From: a virus
DNA length: 60,740 nt
IMG/VR virus record: IMGVR_UViG_3300044825_002458
Span: 1-60,740 of that record
Direction: 5' to 3' (one strand)
This document shows positions 36,872 through 60,740 of this stretch, piece by piece. Both the position numbers and the translations under genes were made by a program. Within the stretch, counting starts at the first letter, position 1. The number at the start of each line of letters is the position of its first letter. The notes below the pieces were generated by a model. That model did no database searches, was not told where the DNA came from, and saw nothing but the letters and a program-made list of their open reading frames with translations.

Positions 36872-38362
36872 ATGACACCCACTGCTCGTACCGCCCGCTC
36901 CCGCTCCCGTCGCATCTCTTCTCCAATAACGCAGGGTCCAGCGCCGCTCTACTCTTCGTCCCTGTCTTCTGCGGAGTACCTGGAACAGACCCTTAGCGAG
37001 GAATTGACGGAGAAAGGCCGTCGCCTGTGGACTCCGTTTCGTTATCACCCCGTCCAAAGTGCGCTCTGGTCTTCCAACGCGCGTTTTCGTATGGTGCCGG
37101 CGGGACGACGTTCGGGAAAGACTGCAATCGCAAAGCGCTTTGGAGTGTTGAGCGCTGTTACTTGCACACTCCCCGATGGTTGGTTTGTGTTCGCAGCGCC
37201 GGTTCAGAAACAAGCCGTCCAGATCTATTGGCGAGATCTGAAGGCGATGATCCCCAAGTCGTGGCAACTTCGTAGGCCGAGCGAATCGGATCGAACCATC
37301 TTCTTGATTAATGGTGCAGAGATCCAGGTGATTGGACTGGATGTGCCGGAACGACTCGAGGGTCGGCCGTTGGATGGGATCGTGATTGATGAGTATGGGA
37401 ACTGCCGAGAGGAGGCGTGGGACGCGAATATCCGACCTGCCTTGTCCACGCCAGATCGTCCGCCGGGGTGGGCGTGGCTGATCGGAGTGCCGGAAGGTCG
37501 TAATCACTACTACGATCTCTGGCAGGATGTGATATCGACGCCCGACGATGAGGAATGGGCGGGGTTCACGTGGTCTTCACGAGACATCATGGACCCCAAG
37601 GAGGTTGAGTCGCTGCGGAAGAAGCTCGACCCGAAGACGTTCTCCCAGGAAGTGGATGCAACGTTTGAGTCGTTCGATGGGGCTGTCTACTATGGCTTTG
37701 AGCGAAAGGTGCACGCCGGGACTAGGCTCCGTTACCGCCCCACCGAGCCCTTATACATCACCTTTGACTTCAACGTGGAACCTGGCACTGCGAATATCGT
37801 GCAAGAGGGTCCACCGACTCAAGGCTCGCTCCCGCAATCTGTCTTCCAGAAGTTCTCGGCCAGCGTTACACAGGTGATTGACGAGATCCATGTCCCAGTG
37901 GGATCTTCGACCCCGAGAGTGTGCCACGATATCTTGGCTAAGTATCGAAACCACAAGGGACCTGTGGTGATGATTGGCGATCCATCTGGTGGTAACCGAG
38001 AAACTAGCCAGACGGCGGGTACTGATATTGACTTGATCAAGCAGATATTCCGCCCGGTGTTCGGCGAACGCTTGCGTAATGCGTTCTCCTTGAGCAAGGT
38101 GCCGGTAAAAGCGAGGATTAACTCCGTCAATGCTCGTATCCAGTCGACCGATGAGAAGTACCACTTCCAGATCGACCCGATGACCTGTCCCCACACAGTC
38201 AAAGACTTCGAAGGTGTGATGGTGTTGAAGGGGACGGCGGGTATACCAGATAAGCGAAAGTGCGAGAAGGAGGGTATTGGTCACCACACGGACGGCATTG
38301 GCTATTACATTCACCGAAAGTTCCCCCTCCGTCGCCCAACAGCCCTATTGCAATCGGCGTAA
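36872..38362 (+). CDS. Terminase large subunit
   Basis: A 496-residue packaging motor. Walker A is AGRRSGKT (residues 77-84) and Walker B is GIVIDEYG (D173, E174). The C-terminal nuclease domain begins YITFDFNVEPG (D299) and includes GDPSGGNRETSQT, typical of the RNase H-like nuclease of Terminase_6 proteins. It cuts and pumps DNA into proheads through the portal encoded downstream. The basic, Ser/Arg-rich first 20 residues may be disordered. Confidence 0.93.
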   Translation: MTPTARTARSRSRRISSPITQGPAPLYSSSLSSAEYLEQTLSEELTEKGRRLWTPFRYHPVQSALWSSNARFRMVPAGRRSGKTAIAKRFGVLSAVTCTLPDGWFVFAAPVQKQAVQIYWRDLKAMIPKSWQLRRPSESDRTIFLINGAEIQVIGLDVPERLEGRPLDGIVIDEYGNCREEAWDANIRPALSTPDRPPGWAWLIGVPEGRNHYYDLWQDVISTPDDEEWAGFTWSSRDIMDPKEVESLRKKLDPKTFSQEVDATFESFDGAVYYGFERKVHAGTRLRYRPTEPLYITFDFNVEPGTANIVQEGPPTQGSLPQSVFQKFSASVTQVIDEIHVPVGSSTPRVCHDILAKYRNHKGPVVMIGDPSGGNRETSQTAGTDIDLIKQIFRPVFGERLRNAFSLSKVPVKARINSVNARIQSTDEKYHFQIDPMTCPHTVKDFEGVMVLKGTAGIPDKRKCEKEGIGHHTDGIGYYIHRKFPLRRPTALLQSA

Positions 38363-38382
38363 TCTACGTCTACAACCTCCGA

Positions 38383-40536
38383 ATGGATCGAATGGACATG
38401 ACTACCAACACAGACCGTGCAGTTCGCGCGAGAGCGCTCCTGTTCTACATTGCCTTGTTCGCCATGCTTGCCCTGGCGTTCACGGCATCTGTGTCCGCAC
38501 AGACCATCAACATCGCTAATCCTGCTAGCAAGGAACAGACGCGATGGGTGGTTGCCCCAATGCCACTGTCCCAGGCCGCAGCGTTGCCCGCTGCATGTCT
38601 GGCGAATGGGAAGTACCCCGCCTACAAGGCGCAGCAACTCGGTGTGACGACCCAGCTGTGGCACATCAAGTGCACGGTACCGGCCAAAGGTACCTTGTCA
38701 CTGACTACCTGGGCGCCGATCCCTCCCACGATCCCTCCCACCGCCTTCACGATGACTCCGTGGGTGCTTGACAATCCGAACCGAGTGGTCATGCGCCTGG
38801 TCATCTATGAGGGGAACGTGTGGAAGTCGAACATCGAGCTGAAGGCCGGCACGATGGTTCGAAGCTCGCAGGTGTCACAGACCTGGGAGTTCCGTGGCAA
38901 TACGGGCGCACCGAGCCAAGCGGCTAGGGGATACACGTTCACTCTGTGGACTACCTTCTGGGAAGGTCAAGACGCAGTGGACATGGAGGGGGTTGCTATT
39001 TGGAGCAATCCGCTTTCACCCAGTTGGTCACAGGGAAACGTCAAGCTCGACCTGGTCAGCGGTGCTTGGCCGATCGACGGTGAGCCGTTCTCGCTCTACA
39101 ACGCAGCGCCGAACGGGTTTGCCAAGTGGAACAAGGGCTATACGATCTACCGGGGTATGTTGCCCCATGGCGTTGGCATCGCCTTCCGCGGAGTCATCCT
39201 CCCGGTTGACGATTCGCCTTTGCCGATCTCGTTCGAAGATCAGGACAAGCATCTGAACGACGCTGACCGCGCGCGGCTTGAGGCCGCGGCGGCGGAAGCG
39301 CCGCTCGTTGCTGCCTGTGACTGGACTCAGTCGCCGAACGATTGGATGGCTTTTGGTGAGGTTCCACGGACTACACAGAGAGCAAATCCTACTGCGGTGA
39401 TCGAGGCCACGCAGCGAGCGGGAGGGTACTTCGATCCGAGGCCCTATGCTAACCACGGCAAGCACGACGATACAGGCGATCAGCTGCCATTCGGTGCCAC
39501 GAAGGATCTCATTGCGCTGCAAGGTGACCCATGGAGGGTCTACGAGCTACAAGACAGCGCCCTGGATTATTGGCGCCGAGCCGCACACCACCGAGAACTC
39601 GATGGTCGTCGCGTAACCAAGGCCATTCGACCGGGTGTTCAGACATGGCAGATGAACATCGAACCGCGAATGAGCCCTGACACCTTTGGTAAACCAGGCG
39701 GTTCGAACAACTACGTCCCAGACCTGACCATTGGGCTTCGCCACTTCTACGCGGACGACCAGCACCGCGGAGACGCCTACACACTCTGTGGCTACGCACT
39801 CAGCGGCTCCCCGCTGTTGCTCGAATGCATCCACGATATGATTACCGTGGACGAGATGCGTGCGATGCCAGCGAGAGGATGGTTCGATGCCCCTCGAGCC
39901 ACCGGTCGTCTCATGCAGAGCTGGGCGAAGATCGCTACGATCACCAACGGTGCTGACCGAGACCTTGCGCTGAGCCTTGGCCTCGCAGAACTTGCCGATC
40001 GTCAACGCGATCAGGACAAGTGGCACTACAATCCGGTTCGCGTGGTCGAGTGGAAGGACCCGGATCCGCGAGTGTTGAGCGGTGCGCGCTTCAGTGTGCC
40101 GTGGAATGATGGGCTGTGTGTCCTGGGCGCGTTGGAGGAACGACGGGCCTTCATTCGCCTCGGCCGCCTCGAGGACGCCGAGAAGTTCACCGAGTTCGCC
40201 GCGTATCTGGGCACTAGCATCATCAAGTGGTCAACCGTTACTGACTCGCGGACGGGCGATGTGTTGCCGATCAACGGCCTGAAGTGGCTCGATGGCGGCG
40301 CCGCGAACCCTGCGTCCTACTACGTCTACCCTCGAGCCGGTGCTGCCACTGATAACGCAGTGGATATGCTGGTTGGGTCGCTTGGATGGTGGAAGTGGTA
40401 CTCTGGCCCGTTGTTCGTTGCCAAGTCGCCATCACTCAATGTCAACGTGGATGATCGAGCGAAGGCCGAAGCCATCTGGCAAAGGACCGTCACGAACCCC
40501 GACCTGTCCACGCTCGAGTGGACGGCTGTGAAGTGA
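38383..40536 (+). CDS. Large secreted protein of unknown function
   Basis: A 717-residue protein with a clear signal peptide: a basic region (DRAVRARA), a hydrophobic core (LLFYIALFAMLALAF) and a cleavage-like VSAQ (after about residue 39). The rest looks like an N-terminal beta domain (40-260) followed by a large helical domain (about 380-700) with GYALSGSPLLLECIHDM and GRLEDAEKFTEFAAYL repeats, like alpha/alpha-toroid glycan lyases or hydrolases. PL26-type lyase architecture is one possibility. I chose ATG 38383, 20 bases after the terminase stop. A secreted enzyme between terminase and portal is very unusual; it may degrade capsule or polysaccharide. Confidence 0.6.
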   Translation: MDRMDMTTNTDRAVRARALLFYIALFAMLALAFTASVSAQTINIANPASKEQTRWVVAPMPLSQAAALPAACLANGKYPAYKAQQLGVTTQLWHIKCTVPAKGTLSLTTWAPIPPTIPPTAFTMTPWVLDNPNRVVMRLVIYEGNVWKSNIELKAGTMVRSSQVSQTWEFRGNTGAPSQAARGYTFTLWTTFWEGQDAVDMEGVAIWSNPLSPSWSQGNVKLDLVSGAWPIDGEPFSLYNAAPNGFAKWNKGYTIYRGMLPHGVGIAFRGVILPVDDSPLPISFEDQDKHLNDADRARLEAAAAEAPLVAACDWTQSPNDWMAFGEVPRTTQRANPTAVIEATQRAGGYFDPRPYANHGKHDDTGDQLPFGATKDLIALQGDPWRVYELQDSALDYWRRAAHHRELDGRRVTKAIRPGVQTWQMNIEPRMSPDTFGKPGGSNNYVPDLTIGLRHFYADDQHRGDAYTLCGYALSGSPLLLECIHDMITVDEMRAMPARGWFDAPRATGRLMQSWAKIATITNGADRDLALSLGLAELADRQRDQDKWHYNPVRVVEWKDPDPRVLSGARFSVPWNDGLCVLGALEERRAFIRLGRLEDAEKFTEFAAYLGTSIIKWSTVTDSRTGDVLPINGLKWLDGGAANPASYYVYPRAGAATDNAVDMLVGSLGWWKWYSGPLFVAKSPSLNVNVDDRAKAEAIWQRTVTNPDLSTLEWTAVK

Positions 40537-41917: not shown

Positions 41918-43669
41918 ATGCTCGGACTAGGTCTAGGCCTTGGTGGTTCCTTGAAACGTCGTGGTTCACAACCAATCACGATTGCGTTGACTCCCAGCCG
42001 AACGAGTGGAGTCGCGCCGCTTGCGGTCCACTTCGATCTAACGGGAACAACCGGCGACAACGCGACAAACCCTTTCGCTGAGCTGGACTACTGGGCAGAC
42101 TTCGACGATCCGTCGGGTAGCTTCGACGGCGGCAACCGCGGGGCGGTTGTCTCCCACGTGTTCGATGCCCCCGGAACCTATGACGTCGTGTTCTATGTCC
42201 GCGACATCCTTGGCAACCTGGCAACGCGCGGTGTCACGATCACGGTCAGCGACCCCGACGTGGTGTTCGCCGGCACCGACACGGTTTGCGTCGCCTCCGA
42301 TGGCGACTTCACCGGAGCGCCATCTGGATGCACGCAGGTCACGTCGAGCGACTTCGACGCCGTGGCGTTGGCATACCTGGGGAGCGGCAAGCGAGTTCTG
42401 TTCAAGAAGGGGCAAACGTTCACATCTTCTGCAACGGTTGCAATCACAGCCACCAGTGCGGCCATCCTCGGGGCATGGGGGACTGTGGGAACACTGGATG
42501 CACGAGGTATCGACTCGAACGCGCCAATCGTCAGTGTGGCCCACAACAGCAACGTGCTGACGTTCGGTAGCTCGGGCTCGACAATCATCGCGAATGACGT
42601 TCGTGTGATGGATATCGACTTCCGCTACACGAATGGCGGGACGTCGGGGCACTTCGCAGCCTTCAGCTACCGAGGCGACCAACTCCTGTTCTACCGGTTG
42701 AAGAACAGCAGCGGCCAGTTCAACTACGACTTCAACCTGAGCACGTCGGTCCCCGAGACTTACGGGATCGACCCGCCTGACCTCAACTGCATCGCCAACT
42801 GCGACTTCTCCATCGGCTCACGGGGATACGGCGCCTACATCGGCGGCCTGCGGTGGATGTTGCTCAACACCGCGTTTGGGACGTCGGGGTCATCGACGCA
42901 CGGCACGCGCGTTCAGTTCGGCCGTAAGTGCCATTTCGCCGGCATGGTATGGGCCAAGGCCGCGAGCAGCACGCACAGCTTCACGATCCGCGCGCACGAT
43001 CACGTCGCCGGACAGGAGGAAGAAACGGGCAGCCGCTATCACGTCGTGGACGGATGCACGACCGACTGCGGGACTGTCTGGCCGTGGCACATCGGAAGCG
43101 AGAGCACCGGCCACGAGGAATACGTGGACGACGTGCTGGTGGATGGGTGCGTGTTCAACGTCGGGACGGGCGCGAACAACAGCTACCAGATCCACACTGG
43201 CGGACGTCGAATCACGATTGCCAACTGCACCGTCAACGTGAACGCAGGAGAGGGCATCACGTCCTGCGGTCTCGCGTTCGTCGATACTTACGGATTGTCG
43301 CCGCAGGCCGCCCCCGAGGACGTTCGGATCATCCACAACACGGTCGCGACCGACGTGACGATGAGCGGAACGATCCGGCTGCTCAACGCTACGTCCGGCT
43401 CCAACATCTTCTTACAGAACAACATCCTTTATGCCCCAGCGGCGACGACGCGGACGCTGAAGACCGGCGCGGCCACAGTCACGGTGGACCACAACCTGCT
43501 GGACATCGACCCGTCGTTTGTTGCGCTCCCTGGCGACCTACACCTACAATCCGGGAGCGCCGCGCGCGACTACGGGACGCCTGTCGCGTGGTCGTTCCGC
43601 GACGCCGACGGAGTTCTCCGAGACTACACGACGAGCCCGGACGCGGGCGCTTTGGAATACGTAGCATGA
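41918..43669 (+). CDS. PKD and right-handed beta-helix protein (spike-like)
   Basis: A 583-residue protein. Residues 20-110 form a PKD-like domain (PLAVHFDLTGTT, VSHVFDAPGTYDVVFYVRD). Residues 115-560 show repeated NxxF/VxNC-type turns of a parallel beta-helix (NCIANCDFSIGSRG, CVFNVGTGANNSYQI, NCTVNVN, IHNTV, QNNILY). The end resembles closing sequences of such proteins (DAGALEYVA). Beta-helices of this kind are polysaccharide-binding or cleaving spikes. It lies in the head region rather than beside the tail tip, so it could be a head-attached fibre. Enzyme activity is not shown. Confidence 0.7.
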   Translation: MLGLGLGLGGSLKRRGSQPITIALTPSRTSGVAPLAVHFDLTGTTGDNATNPFAELDYWADFDDPSGSFDGGNRGAVVSHVFDAPGTYDVVFYVRDILGNLATRGVTITVSDPDVVFAGTDTVCVASDGDFTGAPSGCTQVTSSDFDAVALAYLGSGKRVLFKKGQTFTSSATVAITATSAAILGAWGTVGTLDARGIDSNAPIVSVAHNSNVLTFGSSGSTIIANDVRVMDIDFRYTNGGTSGHFAAFSYRGDQLLFYRLKNSSGQFNYDFNLSTSVPETYGIDPPDLNCIANCDFSIGSRGYGAYIGGLRWMLLNTAFGTSGSSTHGTRVQFGRKCHFAGMVWAKAASSTHSFTIRAHDHVAGQEEETGSRYHVVDGCTTDCGTVWPWHIGSESTGHEEYVDDVLVDGCVFNVGTGANNSYQIHTGGRRITIANCTVNVNAGEGITSCGLAFVDTYGLSPQAAPEDVRIIHNTVATDVTMSGTIRLLNATSGSNIFLQNNILYAPAATTRTLKTGAATVTVDHNLLDIDPSFVALPGDLHLQSGSAARDYGTPVAWSFRDADGVLRDYTTSPDAGALEYVA

Positions 43670-43935: not shown

Positions 43936-45531
43936 ATGAAGAAGAAGACGAAGGCAACGGCGACAGACGCCAAGGTTCTCGACCTTAATAGCATCAACAA
44001 CGAGAGCTTGGCGTATATCGCCATCAAGCCGACTTGGTACAAGGTTGGCCCACTGGCGCTCACCGGTCATACCGACGAGATGAGGGCCAATCGAGAACTC
44101 TTCCTACCAAAGGAAGAACTCGAGGATAACGATAACTACAATATCCGCCTTACGCACTCGTTTTTGTATGGGGCGTATCGGGATACCATCGAGAAGTGTG
44201 TGGCTAAGCCGTTCTCGAGGGAGATCGTTGTTGACCATCCAACGGAGAAGTCAAAGCAGGTATTGGCCAACGCAAACGGTAGCGGTAAGTCGCTGAGCGA
44301 TGTGGCCAAACAGTTCTTTGCGTTTGGTGTGAACTACGGGGTAGCCCACTTGTTGGTCGATCTCCCCAAGAAGCCGATTGAGCCTGGGACTGCGCCTACG
44401 CTGGCCGACGACATTAAGGTTACTCCCACCTTCACTGTGATTAGTCCATACAACCTCATCTGGTGGCATCACGAAAAGGATCCCCAGACGGGTGCGTTGG
44501 AGCTCACGGAAATCCACATCCGTGATACCATCATCAAGTCCAATACCACCACCTACGTAGACACACAATACGTTCGGGTTACCAAGTATACCAAGACCTC
44601 ATGGGAGATCTACTTGGCCGAATCTGGTGGTAAGTTCGAACTCGATTCATCTGGCGCACATTCGTTTGGTCGAGTTCCGTTGTTCTCGTGGTTTGCCAAC
44701 GAGGAGCTTTCTCCGTTCGTCACTAAGCCTCCGCTGCTCGAATTGGCTGACCTCAACATCGCTCACTGGCAATCTTCGAGTCAGCAGCGAAACTATCTGC
44801 GGTTCATTCGGATTGGCTTCCTCTTCATCGCAGGCATTACCGAAGATGACCTGGTCAAGCAAGGTGGTACCATTCGAGTGGGGCCCACTAATGTGCTGGC
44901 CACCGAGAATCCAAACGCCAAGGCTAACTACCTTGAGCACCAAGGAACCGCCTACGATTCCGGTATCAAAGACCTGGATCGACTCGAACAGCAGATGACC
45001 ATCATGGGTCTTCAGCCGTTCATCGAGAAGGCCTCTGGTGACCCCACTGCTACTGGTCGTTCGATCACTGAGGCCAAGCATCAATCGCGTCTTCAGATGT
45101 GGTGCAAGCATTGCTCCACCGCCCTTACCGCCGCAGTGGCCTTCGGCCTCGAGGCGTCGAATGATGAAGTAAATCCGAAGTTTGCCGTCAACATCTACTC
45201 CGACTTCGGTATCTCAGTCGACAACATCCAGAAGGTCGACAAGCTGTTCCAAGCCCATCGTGAAAAGGCGATCACTACCGAGACGCTGCTCCGCGAGCTC
45301 CAACGCTACGGTATCGTCAGCGAGAAGATCGACCCCGAGATCGAAGTCGAAACCGCTGCGGAAGAAGCCAAGGTCGATTCGCTCAACTCGCTTGGCATTG
45401 GCGGCGATCCAGCCGTGAACGACCCGAACCTCGACGAGAACGGTCAACCCAAGAACACTCAGAACCCCGCCGTACCCCTCAAGAAGGACAAGAAGCCTCA
45501 ACCGTTCCAAGTGAAGAAGGCTAAGCAGTGA
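43936..45531 (+). CDS. Portal protein, DUF4055 family
   Basis: A 531-residue portal that forms the dodecameric channel at the capsid vertex. The N-terminal half shows the DUF4055 pattern: an initial WYKVG...RANRELFLPKEE, then FLYGAYRDTIEKCVAKPFSR, then FFAFGVNYGVAHLLVDLP and ISPYNLIWWHHE. The C-terminal part contains TATGRSITEAKHQSRLQMW. A Lys/Pro-rich tail follows. It is coupled to the MuF-like gene by a four-base overlap, the classic portal-MuF order. Confidence 0.85.
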   Translation: MKKKTKATATDAKVLDLNSINNESLAYIAIKPTWYKVGPLALTGHTDEMRANRELFLPKEELEDNDNYNIRLTHSFLYGAYRDTIEKCVAKPFSREIVVDHPTEKSKQVLANANGSGKSLSDVAKQFFAFGVNYGVAHLLVDLPKKPIEPGTAPTLADDIKVTPTFTVISPYNLIWWHHEKDPQTGALELTEIHIRDTIIKSNTTTYVDTQYVRVTKYTKTSWEIYLAESGGKFELDSSGAHSFGRVPLFSWFANEELSPFVTKPPLLELADLNIAHWQSSSQQRNYLRFIRIGFLFIAGITEDDLVKQGGTIRVGPTNVLATENPNAKANYLEHQGTAYDSGIKDLDRLEQQMTIMGLQPFIEKASGDPTATGRSITEAKHQSRLQMWCKHCSTALTAAVAFGLEASNDEVNPKFAVNIYSDFGISVDNIQKVDKLFQAHREKAITTETLLRELQRYGIVSEKIDPEIEVETAAEEAKVDSLNSLGIGGDPAVNDPNLDENGQPKNTQNPAVPLKKDKKPQPFQVKKAKQ

Positions 45532-47455: not shown

Positions 47456-48460
47456 ATGGCAATCACCCGTCTGTCCGATCTCATCGTCCCGGATGTCTTC
47501 CAGGACTACCTGAGCCTGATGTCCACCGAGAGGAACCGGCTGATCCAGTCCGGCATCGTCGGTCGAGACCCGCGCATCGATGCGCTTCTCGCCGGCGGTG
47601 GCCGAACGTTCAACCTGCCGTTCTGGAACGACCTGGCGAACACCGAAGCGAACGTCTCGACCGACGATCCGGCCGTGACCGCAACGGCTCAGCCCATCAC
47701 CACTGGCAAGGACGTGGCCATTCGCCACAACCGGAACCAGATGTGGGGCGCGGCCGATCTCGAGGCGGCTCTCGTCGGTGAAGATCCGATGGCGGAGATC
47801 ATCGGTAAGGTGTCCGGCTACTGGCGCCGTCAGGATCAGCGAACGCTCATCAACTCGCTCGTCGGCCTGTTCGCGGACAACGTCGCGAATGACTCGAGCG
47901 ACATGGTGAACTCGATCGCTCTCAAGGCCGCCGGCACTCCTGGTGCGTCGAACAAGATCTCGGCCGATGCAGTGCTCGACACCCGCCAGACGATGGGCGA
48001 TGCGGGCGACAACCTGGTCGCGATCGCCATGCACTCGGCGATCCTGACGTCCCTGAAGAAGCAGAACCTCATCTCGTTCATCCCCGCGAGCGATGGCAAG
48101 GTCAACTTCGCCACGTTCATGGGGCTGTTTGTCATCGAGGACGATGGCATCACCCCCTACACCGCTACGCAGACGGTGCATCGGGTGTTCCTGCTCGGCG
48201 CCGGTGCATTCCGCTGGGGCGAAGGCCGTCCGAAGGTCCCGGTCGAAGTCGAGCGTCAGGCCACCCAGGGCCGCGGCGCAGGCGTCGAGTACCTCGTGAG
48301 CCGTCGCGAGTACATCCTGCACCCGGCCGGCTACAAGTTCGTCCCGACGAGCATCGCCGGTCAGTCGCCCACGTGGGCGGAATTGGCCGCGGCCGCTCAG
48401 TGGGACCGCGTCTACGATCGCAAGCTGATCCCGCTGGCGATGCTCGAGGTCAACCCGTAG
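47456..48460 (+). CDS. Major capsid protein
   Basis: A 334-residue protein beginning ITRLSDLIVPDVFQDYLSLM, with GRDPRIDALLAGGGRTFNLPFWNDL, a pattern of many phage coat proteins with the HK97 fold. The E-loop-like and A-domain segments (DNLVAIAMHSAILTSLKKQN, VIEDDGITPY) are also typical. It builds the icosahedral shell and is followed by a strong hairpin. Order scaffold-capsid-hairpin fits a highly expressed gene. Confidence 0.9.
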   Translation: MAITRLSDLIVPDVFQDYLSLMSTERNRLIQSGIVGRDPRIDALLAGGGRTFNLPFWNDLANTEANVSTDDPAVTATAQPITTGKDVAIRHNRNQMWGAADLEAALVGEDPMAEIIGKVSGYWRRQDQRTLINSLVGLFADNVANDSSDMVNSIALKAAGTPGASNKISADAVLDTRQTMGDAGDNLVAIAMHSAILTSLKKQNLISFIPASDGKVNFATFMGLFVIEDDGITPYTATQTVHRVFLLGAGAFRWGEGRPKVPVEVERQATQGRGAGVEYLVSRREYILHPAGYKFVPTSIAGQSPTWAELAAAAQWDRVYDRKLIPLAMLEVNP

Positions 48461-48506
48461 TAGGTAGTGACCCCGAGGCCGGTGGGTCAGACAACGCAGA
48501 GGGCCC

Positions 48507-48546
48507 AAGCCTCGGGCGTCAACAGTGACGCTCGGGGCTTGTTTCG
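48507..48546 (+). terminator. Hairpin after the major capsid gene
   Basis: A 15-bp stem (48507-48521 and 48526-48540) with two G-U pairs and an ACAG loop is followed by GTTTCGTT. It probably acts as a partial terminator or 3' stabiliser, making capsid mRNA more abundant than downstream tail mRNA. Confidence 0.75.
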
Positions 48547-48583: not shown

Positions 48584-48925
48584 ATGAGCAAGAAGAATCG
48601 CAAGAACCCAGCAGATGAAGTCGATCCGCTGCTGGATCCCGAGGTCGAGACCGAAGTTGAGACCGAGACCGAAGATCCTGCGCCGGACCCCGAGAACCAG
48701 GCCCAGGCTGACGAACCTCGCGAATTGACACTCGCCGAGATCAACGCGATCCATCGCGAAGCCGATCGTCAAGCTCGTGAGGCCAAGACCAAGGGGCTCT
48801 CGGACGCCGAGCTCATCATCCACAACGCCAACGAGGAAGCCGGCAAGATCATTTCCGCAGCGAAGATTCGTGCCGACGGCATCATCCAGGCCGCACTGAT
48901 GCAGGCCTCACAGTCCACTAAGTAG
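48584..48925 (+). CDS. Acidic helical head-region protein
   Basis: A 113-residue protein with a Glu/Asp/Pro-rich N-terminal half (about 10-50) and a helical C-terminal half (ELTLAEINAIHREADRQARE, then INNANEE-like). No enzyme motif. It starts at ATG 48584 after an A/C-rich leader with CCAAACCCAAA and no ribosome site. It sits where head-decoration or head-completion proteins occur. Confidence 0.55.
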   Translation: MSKKNRKNPADEVDPLLDPEVETEVETETEDPAPDPENQAQADEPRELTLAEINAIHREADRQAREAKTKGLSDAELIIHNANEEAGKIISAAKIRADGIIQAALMQASQSTK

Positions 48926-48932
48926 CACTCCG

Positions 48933-51900
48933 ATGACCGACTACACTCACTACTACCTCATTGTCGGCGACGGCCACATCAAGGGACGGCGAAGCCCGAC
49001 CATGGTGGATCCTGTCGTCGGTGTAACGCTTACGCACCTCGGCCCGACCCAACCGGTCGTGAACACAATCGGGCGAGGCGCGACCAGCGGCGCTGTGATG
49101 CGAGTCACCAAGATTCACAGCACAAGCCTTGTTGAGGGAGAAGCGATCGTAGCGGTCTCGATTAGTGCCTTCATCCCGGGTGAGACCATCAACTGGGACA
49201 GCGGTGGGTCGGCGACGGTCGGGGTCTTCGTGCAGGCCAGCGACGTCCCGCAGACCGCGCAGTACGCGCCCGAGCGCTACGATGCGATCACCAACGCTCA
49301 AACGCCGAGCGATGCGTCCGATACACCATGGTGGGATCAAGGCGCAAAACTGGCGCGAACCATCACTGTAGCCTCTGGGTTCACCGGCACGTTCGTCAAG
49401 GGAGATCGGTGCACCTGCACGTCGGGCGCGGCGTTCACGGTGCTCAAGGTCACGGCCGGCGCCGGCGGCACGCTCAACCTCTACGTGATGCGCGTCACGG
49501 GCTCGCCCGTCGTGAGCGACGTCATCACGAACACGACGCGGGCCGGATCCGGGACCATCGCCGCGGTGCAGTCGGATACCCCAACCGGTGCCTGGGTCCA
49601 GCACCACTGCCTGCCGAACATCGGCGGTGCTGGCGCTGACCTCTACGAGGTGATCCCGAACGGCAACGCAACGTCTCGCGTAACTAACCTGAAGCCCGGT
49701 CTCGGTCTTGACATCTGGGTAACACAGCAGGCGTTCGCCAAGCACAATGCATCCGCCTCTGGAGCGGATCGCGGTGCTCGTGTGCTCACCTATTCGACGT
49801 TCGACCAGAACACAAGCGGCGTCGATGGGAACCTCGGCGGCGTCACGATCCAGACCGTGAAATGCACCGGTACCTTCGGCAACACCTGGGTGATTGGCGA
49901 GACGGTCACGTCCGGTAGCTGGAGCGCCGTCGTCCACGGATTCAGCGAATCGAACAAGTACGTCTTCGTGCGACGCACCAACGGCGAGACGTTGGCCGCT
50001 GGTACTATCACCGGTTCAACGAGCGGAACTACGGCAACGGCCACCGGGCCCGCTTATGGGTGGCAACCCGGCAGCCTCTACTGGAACCAGTTCTGGGCGC
50101 AGCACGCGGCGGCCACCGGCGCCAGCAACGCTCTCCGTTCCGGTAGCCCCATCAAATACGAACACCTCGCGGCCATGATGTGGGAGACCGAAATTGGCCC
50201 GATCAACTCGGCCATCGGCGCCCCATGGCCGACCGAGACTCAAGTTGTGCAGGAGTGGGAGTCGTGGATCACCGCGATGCGAACGGCGCTCGGCCGACCT
50301 GACCTCCCGGTGTCATTGCTGAACATGGACGTCCGGTCGCAAGGCGGCACAATCTTCGGCGTCCCGTTCAGCTACTTCTTGCGCAGCGTCCAAGTTACGA
50401 TGCGCGACCAGATCCCAGGCATTATCCTGGTAAGTACTGATGGCTTCCAGCCAGGCACTACTGCATCGACCAATCCATCGACTCTGTTGGTCTATCGAAC
50501 TGAGGACTACATCGAACTTGGTCGTCGCCTGTGGCGCGCGATGGAGTACGCGGAATGGATCCCCGGTACTGGTAACTTTGAGCCGTTGCCAATTGTACTC
50601 GTCCTTGGTCAGTCTCAAGCCGTGAGTGCAATCCCCGGCACATTCATGGCGCTTGACTTGGACCCCGATCTCTACCCGTCCGCTTACTTCCCGGGCGTCA
50701 GTACGATCGACCCAGACGTGTGGATCTGGAATGCCAACGACCTCGTAAAGTCGTGGGAGAACCTGGACTGCGCAACAAACGGGAACACATTCTTCGGTCA
50801 AGCGCCCGGTACATTCTCGGGCATCACTACGGTATTGGCGCAGCGATTCAAGCGGCGCTTCTCAAACGATGATGGGTCGGCTCAGGTGGCTTTCATCCAC
50901 CTTCCGGTCTCAAGCGCCAGCGCATACGGCGGTGCACCGGTGCCGTGGACGTTCGATCCGCAGATCACTGGCCAGCAACAAGTCTCTGGTAACTACACAG
51001 TCACTGCTTACGCCGCAAGTGGTAGCAATCCTGCCAGAGGTCGGTTCACTGCAACCACAGGAACGTTCGCTGGATGGGATGTTGGCGGATACGTCAATGT
51101 CGCAGGTAGCGCGCTTGGTTTGCTAGGCGCAGGAGGCAACAACCACGCTAACTACAACAACGCTCAGATCTATGCTATCTCAGGTGACGGCTCATGGATC
51201 GAAATCATCGGAGCGTTTGTCAATGAGGGGCCCGAAAGCTTCACCCTGTCTTACGGACCATGGGCGTTGTGGCCTCTGGCCGAGGCGCAGATCGAGGCCG
51301 CGCTGGAGAAGTGCGTCACGCAGCTTAGGCGGATCCCGAGGCCGGCTGGGTGGGTGTGGTGGAACGGCGAGAGCGATGTTTCGGTAAGCGAGTTCTACCA
51401 AGCCGCGCTCAATCGAATCATCGAGCGCATCGACCTCGTCTTCGGGATGCGCGTGAAGGGTGACGGTCCGATCCCCGGGGCGCTTCTGGAGCTGACGCCG
51501 AACACGCCGGTCGGAACGGATGAGCAGGTCACGGCTATCATCGCGGCGCAGCGCGCCATTGCCGCGGCGCGTCCAAACACGGTCTCAATCGACACCAGCA
51601 AGCTACCGTTGCAGATCAGCGGGACCGCATGGCCTCGGACTACGCGGCAGCAGAACGGCATTCACCACACGATGCGTGGCTACCTGATGGCCGGCTACAT
51701 GACCGATAAAGCCATGGGAACGCTGACGGGTATTCCTGAACACCCCGACGGTGATGCCGCCGTCGACTTCGGCGCGGTCGGCGGCGGATACACTTCTGGC
51801 GCCGGTACCGATACTATTGGCACTGACAGCACCCTGATTATCGAAGATGGATCAGGTGTGGATGGGGCCAATGCATTCTTCGATACTCCGTATGTGGACG

Positions 51901-52349
51901 CCTACAATGACAACCACGACCAGGTTACTGAGTGGGCGGCCGGCAGCGTAGATGACAAACAGAAGTGGATCAGGCAAGGCACCGCATATGTGGCTAGGCA
52001 GTACGCTTCAAGATGGCCCGGTGTTAGGGCCTATCAAAATCAGTCACTCCCGTGGCCAAGATACGGAGTGGTCGACTCTGACGGCTATGCCGTGTCATCC
52101 TCGTCCATCCCCGTCGGTATCCTCGAGGCATGCGCGGAAGCTTCCGTTAAGGCTGCGAGCGGGGCGCTATTCCTGACCGACGAAGCCGGCGGGTCAAACC
52201 TGCAGAGTGAAACCCTGACATTGGATGTGCTCACCCTTTCTAGCGTGTTTGTCGGATCGAAGGGTAATCAAACTCGGTTTGTCTCCATCGATCAAATCCT
52301 AATGGCCGCCGGGCTTATCAATGCCGGACTGAGAGTGAGGAGGTCATAA
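48933..52349 (+). CDS. Fibre-esterase fused to DnaT_2-like head-tail connector
   Basis: A 1138-residue protein with an unusual architecture. Residues about 560-940 form an SGNH/sialate-O-acetylesterase-like domain with VLVLGQSQAVS (block I), WVWWNGESDVS (block III) and NGIHHTMRGYLMAG (block V). Residues 1-550 look like an earlier, degenerate copy: LIVGDGHIKG, AAMMWETEIG, TEDYIELGRRLWRAM. The last 165 residues (from about 965, LIIEDGSGVDGANAF ... WPGVRAYQNQSLPWPRYG ... GLRVRRS) match the putative DnaT-like connector family (PF20557 type). Usually that module is a separate neck protein. The position between capsid and neck genes agrees. Confidence 0.7.
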   Translation: MTDYTHYYLIVGDGHIKGRRSPTMVDPVVGVTLTHLGPTQPVVNTIGRGATSGAVMRVTKIHSTSLVEGEAIVAVSISAFIPGETINWDSGGSATVGVFVQASDVPQTAQYAPERYDAITNAQTPSDASDTPWWDQGAKLARTITVASGFTGTFVKGDRCTCTSGAAFTVLKVTAGAGGTLNLYVMRVTGSPVVSDVITNTTRAGSGTIAAVQSDTPTGAWVQHHCLPNIGGAGADLYEVIPNGNATSRVTNLKPGLGLDIWVTQQAFAKHNASASGADRGARVLTYSTFDQNTSGVDGNLGGVTIQTVKCTGTFGNTWVIGETVTSGSWSAVVHGFSESNKYVFVRRTNGETLAAGTITGSTSGTTATATGPAYGWQPGSLYWNQFWAQHAAATGASNALRSGSPIKYEHLAAMMWETEIGPINSAIGAPWPTETQVVQEWESWITAMRTALGRPDLPVSLLNMDVRSQGGTIFGVPFSYFLRSVQVTMRDQIPGIILVSTDGFQPGTTASTNPSTLLVYRTEDYIELGRRLWRAMEYAEWIPGTGNFEPLPIVLVLGQSQAVSAIPGTFMALDLDPDLYPSAYFPGVSTIDPDVWIWNANDLVKSWENLDCATNGNTFFGQAPGTFSGITTVLAQRFKRRFSNDDGSAQVAFIHLPVSSASAYGGAPVPWTFDPQITGQQQVSGNYTVTAYAASGSNPARGRFTATTGTFAGWDVGGYVNVAGSALGLLGAGGNNHANYNNAQIYAISGDGSWIEIIGAFVNEGPESFTLSYGPWALWPLAEAQIEAALEKCVTQLRRIPRPAGWVWWNGESDVSVSEFYQAALNRIIERIDLVFGMRVKGDGPIPGALLELTPNTPVGTDEQVTAIIAAQRAIAAARPNTVSIDTSKLPLQISGTAWPRTTRQQNGIHHTMRGYLMAGYMTDKAMGTLTGIPEHPDGDAAVDFGAVGGGYTSGAGTDTIGTDSTLIIEDGSGVDGANAFFDTPYVDAYNDNHDQVTEWAAGSVDDKQKWIRQGTAYVARQYASRWPGVRAYQNQSLPWPRYGVVDSDGYAVSSSSIPVGILEACAEASVKAASGALFLTDEAGGSNLQSETLTLDVLTLSSVFVGSKGNQTRFVSIDQILMAAGLINAGLRVRRS

Positions 52350-52350
52350 C

Positions 52351-52752
52351 ATGACCACCGAGTTGGATAGGAAACTTGCCAACAAAGTCGAACTTGCGCT
52401 TCGACGGGTTGGAATATCCGCGTCATTGGTCACGGTTGTTCGATCTTACAACCCGTTAACAAGCCGTACCACTACGACCGAGACAACCACCACCATCATT
52501 TGCACACCACCCGTCGGCTGCATCGTGAACAGAGGGACTCTCCCAGCGTCAGCGGAAGGTAATCAGTCTGCGCAGTCGACGGGTCTCCGTATCATCACCA
52601 CTCCGAGCTTGATGAGTAACGTTAGCCCACATATCGGAGATACCGTGATTATCTCAAGCCGCCGGTACCGCATCACATCGTATGAGCCGATCTACTCTGG
52701 CGACTTCCTACAGCTCTATAAGATCTACTTGATCGGCGTCAATGGCATCTAA
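52351..52752 (+). CDS. Head-closure / neck protein
   Basis: A 133-residue beta-rich protein (SLMSNVSPHIGDTVIISSRRYRITSYEPIYSGDFLQLYKIYLIGVNG) in the exact place of head-closure proteins: after the connector and before the gp10-like protein. Only structure-level similarity is visible. ATG follows one base after the previous stop. Confidence 0.6.
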   Translation: MTTELDRKLANKVELALRRVGISASLVTVVRSYNPLTSRTTTTETTTTIICTPPVGCIVNRGTLPASAEGNQSAQSTGLRIITTPSLMSNVSPHIGDTVIISSRRYRITSYEPIYSGDFLQLYKIYLIGVNGI

Positions 52753-53230
52753 CTACAGAGCATGGAGCAAGCACATCCGGCTCTATGGCCAAGAGGTTAG
52801 AGGCCGAGTAAAGAGGTTCCACGGAGCTAGGTTCCTTCAGCTGGTTCGGATGGTGCTCAAGCAAACACCGAAGGATACTAGGCGAACAGTCGGTGAGTGG
52901 CAGGCAAGCGCTTACTTCCCAAAGACAGGGCTAGTCGGACACGTCCGCCCAATGTCCGAGGTCATTCAAGAAGCCCAGCAAGTTGTAGCTACCATGAACC
53001 CATTTAGTCGGACATGGTTAGTTAACAATATGAAGCATATCCGAATCCTTGAGTATGGACTGTTCATACCAAGGAATCCGGGACCGTCCAAAGATCGCCG
53101 ACCTCATCGATTTGGTAAGGTGTGGGTGGTCAATGGGTTCTCTATCCAAGCACCAAACGGTATTGTCCGCCCCGTGCTCGAATCACTTAACTCAGGTGTC
53201 GGCTCGTCATTCAAGATCAGCGGAGATTAG
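52742..53230 (+). CDS. HK97 gp10-like tail completion protein
   Basis: A 162-residue protein matching the gp10 family: VLKQTPKDTRRTVGEWQASAY, later EYGLFIP and PNGIVRPVLESL, the conserved 'TPVDTGR...N....EYG....P.GmvR' pattern. It joins the neck to the tail in many siphoviruses. Overlaps the previous gene by 11 bases. Confidence 0.8.
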   Translation: MASNYRAWSKHIRLYGQEVRGRVKRFHGARFLQLVRMVLKQTPKDTRRTVGEWQASAYFPKTGLVGHVRPMSEVIQEAQQVVATMNPFSRTWLVNNMKHIRILEYGLFIPRNPGPSKDRRPHRFGKVWVVNGFSIQAPNGIVRPVLESLNSGVGSSFKISGD

Positions 53231-53284
53231 TAGGTCTAGCGCAATCTGGGTTTGGGGGCGGGCCGACACCCCTCAACAACTAAA

Positions 53285-53710
53285 ATGGGCACTCATACTG
53301 AACTCACTAACTCCATCCAATCGCGATGGAAGACCCTGGTCGAAGATGCAATGAGCGTCCCGACTAAGTATCCAAACGTAGTATGGGTACCGCCCGATAC
53401 CGGCGAAGTGTGGGCTGACATCACAATTACAGTGGCCGCATCCGACCAGATCGACCTCGGCACTGAGGATCGAACCGTAAGGCATGTGGGCTTTGGTAAC
53501 GTCAACCTGTATTTCCAACAGGGTGGAACCTCTACCGCTCCACAAGAGCTCGTGGATCAGATCGTACCACTATTCAGAATGCTCACCGTGACAACCGAGA
53601 GCGAACTTGGTATTGTATTCCGTGTGCCTCGCGTAGCCGTCATCGGTGACTACCAACAGTGGTATGTCATTAACCTTACCCTTCCCTTTTACCTGGACGA
53701 GGTAGCCTAG
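53285..53710 (+). CDS. Tail terminator-like protein (DUF4128 type)
   Basis: A 141-residue protein with VWADITITVAASDQIDLGTEDRTVRHVGFGNVNLYF and a C-terminal strand TLPFYLDEVA. This is the alternating strand pattern of the tail-terminator fold that caps the tail tube. It precedes the tail-tube gene directly. I start at ATG 53285, because the earlier ATG at 53252 has no support. The leader is A/C-rich with no ribosome site. Confidence 0.7.
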   Translation: MGTHTELTNSIQSRWKTLVEDAMSVPTKYPNVVWVPPDTGEVWADITITVAASDQIDLGTEDRTVRHVGFGNVNLYFQQGGTSTAPQELVDQIVPLFRMLTVTTESELGIVFRVPRVAVIGDYQQWYVINLTLPFYLDEVA

Positions 53711-58639: not shown

Positions 58640-59605
58640 ATGACATTCTCCAATCAGCTGTTCCCGGTAAAGATCTCATTTGGGTCACTGGGAGGTCCTC
58701 GCCACGGCGGAGTAGTAAGTGAGCTACCGAGCGGTCAACGAAAAGTGACAGTCCGGTGGGACGGGGCACTTCGTCGATACGATGCGAAATGGGGACTCAA
58801 GACTCAACAAGACCTATACTTGGTATACAACTTTGTGTTGGCCCACAACGGAGCTGAACACACATTCCGATACCGAGACCACCTAGACTACTCGTCAAAC
58901 GCCATCGACGGAGGTAGTACTGTCATTGCGGGCGATGATCAGCTATGCGGTGTTGGCGATGGGTCGAATCGGTCATTCTTCCTATCGAAGGTATACAACG
59001 CCGGACCTGTGGAGAAAGTTCGTCGTATCCAACTACCGTGGACATCACCCGCTCCAATTGTATGGGTCGATGGCGTACTTCAAGTTGAAGGGTCAGACCA
59101 TACCATCGACTACACGACAGGCGAGATCTTGTTCGGAACTGCTCCGTCAATGGGCCTCGAGGTGACCGCCGGGTTCATGTTCGATGTGCACTGCCAGTTT
59201 ACCCAAGAAGTAGACAACTTCCTTCAAGTAGCTATCACTGGGTTCAAGGCGGGCGAAATTCCTAGCATTACCATTGATGAAGTCTCGAGCGATGCTTCGA
59301 ACAGCGTTAGTCGGTCGTTCGGAGGCAGTCGACTTATCAACCTGACTGCCGACCTCAGAATGTCGTTGAATATGGGCGAACTGCTCATTGTCAACCCCAG
59401 CGCTTCGGGGTTTTCGATGTGGCTACCCAACGTCAAAGGCCTCGGTAGCGGAAAGCTATACTTCATCATATCCAACATCTCAGCATTCTCATTCGACCTA
59501 AACAGTCATACGGGAATACTCCAGAGCACCATCGGCCCCGGCGAAACCTGGTTCATCTCACTTCTCGATAACGGCGATAATACCAAGTCCTGGGTAATCT
59601 CATAA
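58640..59605 (+). CDS. Distal tail protein, DUF2460 family
   Basis: A 321-residue protein. Residues 1-205 match DUF2460: FPVKISFGSLGGPRHGGVVSE, RYDAKWGLKTQQDLYLVYNF, TIDYTTGEILFGTAPSMGLEVTAGF-type strands (SDHTIDYTTGEILFG). This family is the distal tail protein of gene-transfer-agent-like tails and joins tube to hub. The remaining 115 residues are an added beta-rich domain (FSMWLPNVKGLGSGKLYFII) resembling fibre heads. Its stop overlaps the next ATG as TAATG. Confidence 0.85.
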   Translation: MTFSNQLFPVKISFGSLGGPRHGGVVSELPSGQRKVTVRWDGALRRYDAKWGLKTQQDLYLVYNFVLAHNGAEHTFRYRDHLDYSSNAIDGGSTVIAGDDQLCGVGDGSNRSFFLSKVYNAGPVEKVRRIQLPWTSPAPIVWVDGVLQVEGSDHTIDYTTGEILFGTAPSMGLEVTAGFMFDVHCQFTQEVDNFLQVAITGFKAGEIPSITIDEVSSDASNSVSRSFGGSRLINLTADLRMSLNMGELLIVNPSASGFSMWLPNVKGLGSGKLYFIISNISAFSFDLNSHTGILQSTIGPGETWFISLLDNGDNTKSWVIS

Positions 59606-60732
59606 TGCTCGCTGAACAATACTACGGCGGATCAGTCGATGCGGGCGTAATTACCCGCGACTACATCATTGGGCCTAAGTCGCTGGTAGTCGTCCAGCCA
59701 GCATCTGCCGGGCCATCGGTTATCCTCCCCGACCCAAACAAGCGGTACCTTGCTCGTGGTGCTCACTACCACATCGTAAACTCATCACCGACGTACTCCC
59801 TACCCGTAAAGGACCATACCTCTACCTATACTCTATTCATCATCCCTCCGATGTCGGGGGTGTTTGCAGTATGGGGCGGAGGTGTTGCAATCCACGGTTG
59901 GGTAGTCACCATTCGTAACCCAGGCGGCGCTACTATCGGATCCGCATTGGCCGCTAACGCGGAATCCATGCTGATCGAGCTGAAGTCGCCACAGTCTCAC
60001 TTTATGGTGAGGAACGCGGCCATCGCCAAGGGCTGGGATACCACGACACCATTAGCTATCATACTGCTAATTGAGACCTCAGCGGTTATCTACTCCTACA
60101 ATACTAGCGTCGCCTCAATTCGCAGTGGAGACTGGTGGCCAGCTGGTTCGTCTCTGTTCATCATCTGCAGGGGACAAGTGTATGGGAAAGGCGGCAATGC
60201 GGGGAGAGGTGGGATTGCAAGTACGGCCTCACCCGGCGGCTACCCAGGTAGTAACGGCGGGCCAGCCATCGATACCCTACTGGACACCATCGTTGTTGTC
60301 TCGGGCGAAATCAAAGGTGGCGGTGGTGGCGGTGGCGGCGGCGATGGAGCAGCTACTCCATCACTGAATCACGGCGGTGGCGGAGGTGGTGGTTGCCCGG
60401 GCGGATTGGGAGGCGCCGCAACCCCAAGTGCACACGTCGGCGGTAACTCACCCCTCTTTACATCGTCGGGTAGAATTCCGTCAGTTGCTATCAATACAAC
60501 TGCGGCAGGGGCTGGCGGCGCAAATGCCGCAGGTGCTCCGAACAATGGTCGAGGTGGAACTGGCGGATTGCCGGGTGTTGCGGGTAGCCCGGGTAGGACC
60601 ACGATTAACACGGCATCATCAACCGGCACTGGTGGTTCGCCAGGTCCGTGGATTCGGCATCCAAGCTCGGTATCACTTGTGTACTCACTACAGGGACTTG
60701 GGGCAGTTGCCGGCGGTATCGAGGTGTACTAA
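59605..60732 (+). CDS. Glycine-rich fibre / adhesin-like protein
   Basis: A 375-residue protein. Residues 1-110 form a beta-rich domain like the end of the preceding DUF2460 protein (VVVQPASAGPSVILPDPNKR). Residues about 195-365 are glycine-rich: nine consecutive glycines near residue 237, then GGGGGGGCPGGLGG and several GGxGG runs. Such runs build polyglycine helix sandwiches in adhesins like gp38 of T-even phages. It sits between distal tail and hub genes, so it is a likely receptor-binding fibre. The 3' end is duplicated at 1-164. Confidence 0.7.
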   Translation: MLAEQYYGGSVDAGVITRDYIIGPKSLVVVQPASAGPSVILPDPNKRYLARGAHYHIVNSSPTYSLPVKDHTSTYTLFIIPPMSGVFAVWGGGVAIHGWVVTIRNPGGATIGSALAANAESMLIELKSPQSHFMVRNAAIAKGWDTTTPLAIILLIETSAVIYSYNTSVASIRSGDWWPAGSSLFIICRGQVYGKGGNAGRGGIASTASPGGYPGSNGGPAIDTLLDTIVVVSGEIKGGGGGGGGGDGAATPSLNHGGGGGGGCPGGLGGAATPSAHVGGNSPLFTSSGRIPSVAINTTAAGAGGANAAGAPNNGRGGTGGLPGVAGSPGRTTINTASSTGTGGSPGPWIRHPSSVSLVYSLQGLGAVAGGIEVY

Positions 60733-60740
60733 TGAAGCTC
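60569..60740. repeat. Direct terminal repeat, copy 2
   Basis: Matches bases 1-172 with one difference (G at 60613 against A at 45). It contains the end of the fibre gene and the first bases of the hub gene (ATG 60732). It marks the artificial or permuted end of the contig. Confidence 0.95.

Follow-up and report, generated by a model that had tools for sequence, protein, structure and literature searches.

The adaptor of roseophage R4C is a dodecamer with an N-terminal Ig-like domain at the periphery outside the capsid (PMC10276861). In the adaptor of RcGTA, the attachment domain lies on the rim of the 12-mer, likewise outside the capsid, and in both adaptors a C-terminal hook grips the portal. 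An outer beta-sandwich is present in the adaptor of phage 812. In lactococcal 936 phages, the neck passage structures, as presented in the relevant part of PMC6669499, involve a neck protein of 500-900 aa with carbohydrate-binding (CBM) or pectin/alginate-lyase-like parts, and neck passage proteins are a known hotspot of domain shuffling (PMC10684548). Phage phi29 carries twelve pre-neck appendages near the collar, formed by p12, which engage a host surface polymer (PMC11476376). SGNH deacetylases are known from the tail fibres G7C gp63.1 and Possum gp66, which target O-acetylated surface polysaccharide and for which deacetylation has been shown experimentally (PMC9569702). Phage receptor-binding proteins often contain SGNH deacetylase domains, and the SGNH domains of Klebsiella prophage fibres are active esterases.

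In the window, i.e. the whole stretch of 60,740 nucleotides analysed here, a head-tail adaptor of the Ad1 (DnaT_2) family is joined to a large N-terminal arm, and this fusion is clear from the sequence (Table 1). It is considered fairly probable that the only adaptor of this phage forms the C-terminal domain of a protein of ~120 kDa, the tandem SGNH-derived arm of which would project from the neck and bind glycans, with deacetylation being possible.

Table 1. Features of the fusion gene and its neighbourhood, with coordinates in the window.
Feature	Coordinates	Strand	Basis
Major capsid protein	47456..48460	+	PHROG_247, E 2e-109
Intrinsic-terminator-like hairpin between capsid gene and fusion operon, 16 pairs, T-rich tail	48506..48541	+	consensus scan
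113-aa protein, charged and coil-like, in the interval from capsid gene to fusion	48584..48925	+	sequence
Fusion gene (N-terminal SGNH-like arm and C-terminal Ad1)	48933..52349	+	1138 aa, stop-free frame
Degenerate SGNH-like half, residues 1-545	48933..50567	+	motifs by eye; hhalign marginal
SASA-type SGNH hydrolase-like domain, residues 546-935, insert at ~685-780	50568..51737	+	hhalign, hmmsearch, motifs
Gly-rich linker, residues 936-966	51738..51830	+	sequence; start/SD scan; frame-specific codon score
Complete Ad1 (DnaT_2) head-tail adaptor domain, residues 967-1138	51831..52346	+	PF20557, PHROG_477, AF2, BFVD
Head closure Hc1	52351..52752	+	PHROG_161, E 2e-4
Neck1 / tail completion	52742..53230	+	PHROG_169, E 1e-8
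Tail terminator	53252..53710	+	PF13554, 1e-9; PHROG_179, 2e-21

The assignment of the last ~165 residues to the DnaT_2-like connector family, proposed by an earlier sequence-only reading of this DNA, is borne out by two profiles. PF20557 (DnaT_2) matches residues 967-1126 with an E-value of 3e-27 and 96 bits compared to a cut-off of 27, covering positions 2-153 of the 168 in the profile, and PHROG_477 'head-tail adaptor Ad1' matches residues 967-1132 (E 3e-29), so that the complete domain qualifies as Ad1 above the curated cut-off. The Ad1 part was modelled with AF2 from an alignment of 45 natural sequences, and the model reached a mean pLDDT of 83 with values above 90 in the core. Its best viral matches in BFVD are DnaT-like proteins (E 1e-10 to 5e-4), and the modelled fold is like that of other DnaT_2/Ad1 proteins. 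A C-terminal fold unlike connectors, named beforehand as an outcome that would contradict the reading, was not encountered as far as this can be checked. A Foldseek search of the PDB with the model gave no matches at E<=0.001, and in a weak second structural comparison the three highest-ranking chains came from entries for phage necks or tails (8q01_b, Z 5.2; 5mu4_B, Z 3.5; 9vvr_U, Z 3.3).

The fusion gene occupies the usual Ad1 slot between the capsid gene and the head-closure and neck genes, as judged against nine annotated phage regions. The gene order is portal (PHROG_145; 43936-45531), Mu-F-like head protein, scaffold, capsid, hairpin, 113-aa gene, fusion, Hc1, neck/tail completion, terminator and tail tube. 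A direct terminal repeat at positions 1-172 and 60569-60740 of the window, with 171 of 172 bases identical, suggests that this uncultivated phage genome of ~60.57 kb is complete, and the fusion is the one Ad1 copy found in it. Because a single-copy adaptor gene lies in the canonical position, its arm is expected to be exposed at the neck. The Shine-Dalgarno (SD) sequence of Hc1, AGGAGG, sits within the 3' end of the fusion gene. The hairpin that follows the capsid gene was recognised by consensus, which on its own does not demonstrate a function; it could dampen transcription of the neck genes. For the 113-aa protein, family searches gave nothing above chance.

Further genes of this genome encode possible surface or tail proteins. 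Directly 5' of the portal gene, a 583-aa protein (41918-43669, +) shows weak similarity to tailspikes (PHROG_2234, 4e-4) as well as a PKD-like domain (3.7e-5, sub-threshold in Pfam), so that a tailspike-like gene is located within the head module. The interval between terminase and portal contains a 758-aa ORF (38260-40536, +) with a signal-peptide-like stretch and a start that is probably the ATG near 38383; it had no match in family searches and is possibly a secreted or surface protein. A Gly-rich tail adhesin (59605-60732, +; Pfam GP38, 4e-7) adjoins DUF2460 and other gene-transfer-agent-like tail-tip genes (Gp84 hub, BR0599, Rcc01698_C), and these are a hint at an alphaproteobacterial host.

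The fusion gene is one uninterrupted frame without internal stops. From 51400 to about 52240, codon preference favours one frame and the other two are negative throughout. A stop or frameshift at residues 940-970, which had been set beforehand as a refutation of the join, is absent from the present sequence, and both frame and codon bias are continuous there. A scan for in-frame start codons between Met928 and Val976 found none, and no SD-like site was found at 51700-51870 ahead of the Ad1 part. The Ad1 part opens with DSTLIIEDGSG; its relatives open with M-A-L-I-V-E-D-G or similar. Because an Ad1 start codon and SD site are absent, a separate Ad1 could hardly be made, even with one base misread, and the production of a free Ad1 via an internal start was rejected. 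Composition gives no sign that the arm is foreign, since its GC content of 0.60-0.63 is similar to that of the capsid and PKD genes (0.62-0.65), although higher than in the neck genes (0.51-0.55).

These observations bear on two other explanations of the join. The SGNH-Ad1 fusion is known from one metagenomic genome and a second example is lacking, as might be expected if an SGNH protein gene and an ordinary Ad1 had been wrongly joined in the metagenome contig by assembly or sequencing. However, there is no break in frame, linker or codon bias, a single indel would not recreate two genes because the Ad1 start codon and SD site are missing, and the fusion is placed exactly at the Ad1 gene position. 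An assembly error behind the join is unlikely, and such an artefact in general is given a very small probability. Alternatively, the single chain could be cut in the linker, leaving a free Ad1 at the neck and the arm elsewhere, either soluble or as a separate fibre. The linker is Gly-rich and probably exposed, and a free Ad1 is the rule among relatives, but a prohead-protease gene was not recognised among the head genes scanned and the sequence bears no mark of a cleavage site. Cleavage is held to be quite improbable.

Among the relatives compared, Ad1 is encoded by a gene of its own. Ad1 loci were gathered via the capsid protein and the Ad1 consensus sequence. Two of the 70 Ad1 ORFs measured are the window itself (1138 aa), and the other 68 have lengths of 60-194 aa, the shortest being clipped by contig ends. 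All 68 are stand-alone, and the same applies to the Ad1 genes (163-180 aa) in the nine annotated regions among some 1347 phage records holding an Ad1 relative, in agreement with the earlier statement that Ad1/DnaT_2 is normally a stand-alone protein. With nine regions compared, another fusion among these ~1347 records is possible. The BFVD proteins that match the Ad1 model with E<=0.001 range from 123 to 198 aa, with one exception of 298 aa. The Ad1 search of bacterial genomes resulted in 19 matches over the cut-off in 385 genomes and 3 in 369, in frames that measure 158-399 aa from stop to stop. The longest ones checked, of 399, 359 and 283 aa, were rejected as fusions: in two of them an ATG lies where the domain begins, and the third, which likewise has an ATG there, amounts to 162 aa in the stretch retrieved, so that all are stand-alone. 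The 'Ad1' and 'endolysin' of phage M6 were also rejected as a fusion, as they are two adjacent genes.

Relatives of the arm were found neither by tblastn against 50,697 phage records, nor by scanning viral contigs for peptide patterns of the whole protein, of its second half and of its Ad1 part, nor in 385 alphaproteobacterial genomes. The DNA pattern for WWNGE[ST]D occurred at six loci, all unrelated to the arm. The term 'orphan' is used for the arm in the sense of none detected, because such scans miss distant relatives. Residues 1-965 had no match among Pfam, PHROG, NCBIfam and PDB-sequence families. AF2 applied to the full 1138-aa protein without relatives gave a pLDDT of 31, and this model was set aside.

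The second half of the arm was compared to a custom SASA-type SGNH profile built from seven genome proteins that were found with PF03629. For residues 546-945, hhalign scores of 38.8-39.2 were obtained, compared to a maximum of 22.3 in 100 shuffles and 12.3 for the Ad1 part as a control, and the match spans the C-terminal SGNH blocks; hmmsearch gave 19 bits for residues 546-935. The remote profile similarity of this half to SASA/PF03629 SGNH hydrolases is therefore above chance. It does not reach the Pfam gathering score, and since no Pfam match was obtained even at E<=10, the half is not filed as a PF03629 member. Its motifs follow in the expected order as Gly-Gln-Ser561-Gln, Asn811-Gly-Glu-Ser-Asp and His911. 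The 'DxxH' block, however, reads Asn908-Gly-Ile-His911, with Asn908 replacing the Asp found at the acid position in all seven SASA sequences used, so the full set of Ser, [QN]GE[ST] and DxxH is not present. A putative divergent SASA-type SGNH hydrolase-like domain is thus detectable in residues 546-935, which may have esterase activity on O-acetyl sugars. With Asn at the catalytic-acid position, it may either cut or only bind, and no relative of the arm was found with which the conservation of the catalytic residues could be compared.

The first half is more degenerate. By eye, it contains G12-D-G14-H-I-K-G, W-E-T-E-I-G at 417-422 and inserted beta-repeat-like stretches at about 45-375. A catalytic Ser and His are missing from residues 1-545, as Gly12-Asp-Gly14 replaces GxS and the last block is without His. 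The hhalign score against the SASA profile is marginal (26.4 compared to a maximum of 25.2 in 150 shuffles). BLASTP showed no significant similarity between the two halves, and an internal duplication visible to this method was rejected. Residues 1-545 are, judging from these motifs, a probable catalytically dead SGNH copy. The sequence-only reading had described two SGNH motif sets, one complete and one eroded. An SGNH-like second half and an eroded N-terminal half were recovered, the latter with the marginal profile support given above, but the supposedly complete set lacks its acid.

The losses in both halves, i.e. Asp to Asn in the second domain and Ser to Gly with a missing His in the first, would also fit a purely structural arm of two non-catalytic SGNH domains, which would decorate the neck and either stabilise the junction of head and tail or provide weak adsorption. 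The authors of the R4C structure likewise take the Ig domain of that adaptor as local stabilisation (PMC10276861). However, Ser561, the N-G-E-S-D motif and His911 are kept in order, which drift after a loss of function would not favour, and a purely structural role is regarded as unlikely.

Under the preferred reading of a glycan-binding, neck-projecting arm, the 960 N-terminal residues would form a tandem SGNH-hydrolase-derived extension of the sole Ad1. By analogy with its family, the Ad1 part would build a dodecameric ring on the portal. The layouts of the R4C, RcGTA and phage 812 adaptors suggest that the N-terminal fusion is on the side that tolerates extra domains. With the Ad1 N-terminus presumably at the outer rim of the ring, the arms would project around the neck, and up to 12 of them, a copy number taken from the solved adaptors, could form a collar. 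The second SGNH domain would most likely bind acetylated glycan on the host surface, with its deacetylation as a further possibility, and the first, dead domain could serve as a spacer or glycan-binding module. A stronger version, in which the obligatory adaptor ring carries an active glycan esterase, with up to twelve covalent SGNH arms clearing acetylated polysaccharide at the neck and zero free adaptor, is considered doubtful. Of the earlier proposal of sugar esterases at the neck, the SGNH-type arm on an adaptor in the canonical slot is retained, but an active esterase, given the Asn at the catalytic-acid position and the apparently dead first half, is putative, and so is a fibre.

The Ad1 adaptors measured otherwise all have fewer than 200 residues and must pack tightly into a ring that links portal and tail. 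Such a chain with a 960-residue arm would demonstrate that large cargo is tolerated at the portal vertex when attached to the N-terminal rim. With an active arm, glycan-modifying enzymes of a siphovirus would have a site at the neck in addition to those at the tail tip and on capsid spikes.

A covalent fusion of an SGNH arm with an adaptor was not found in the literature searches or the sequence data. The earlier claim of a design unknown in other phages holds for this fusion, but not for neck-borne carbohydrate-active domains or an N-terminal adaptor domain, which are known; each element has precedent and the combination was not found elsewhere. The protein shares the whole Ad1 domain with the adaptors of Caulobacter phage DMCA, Vibrio phage 033B and Escherichia phage CAjan, and its genome shares with Ad1/DnaT_2 phages the order capsid, small gene(s), Ad1, head closure, neck, terminator and tube. 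In contrast to the known stand-alone Ad1 proteins, about 960 residues precede the domain. In Vibrio phage 033B, a 387-aa unannotated protein with an Ig-like look is encoded directly 5' of the stand-alone Ad1 (L004:3819-4979) and could represent the equivalent of a neck decoration in unfused form. G7C gp63.1 and Possum gp66 share a virion SGNH hydrolase domain with the fusion, but are tail fibres joined through other proteins (PMC9569702). The twelve neck-near, polymer-contacting appendages of phi29 p12 resemble the proposed collar, although p12 is trimeric, has a tailspike-like fold and is encoded by a separate gene, unlike a covalent adaptor arm (PMC11476376). The lactococcal 936 neck passage structure also places carbohydrate-active-type parts at the neck, but its neck protein is separate with a conserved ~180-aa N-terminal part, and the relevant part of the source describes neither an adaptor fusion nor an SGNH domain (PMC6669499). 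The R4C adaptor likewise has an extra N-terminal domain, a likeness drawn on architecture; this domain has 106 residues and is Ig-like and non-enzymatic, whereas the fusion carries a 960-residue SGNH-type arm (PMC10276861).
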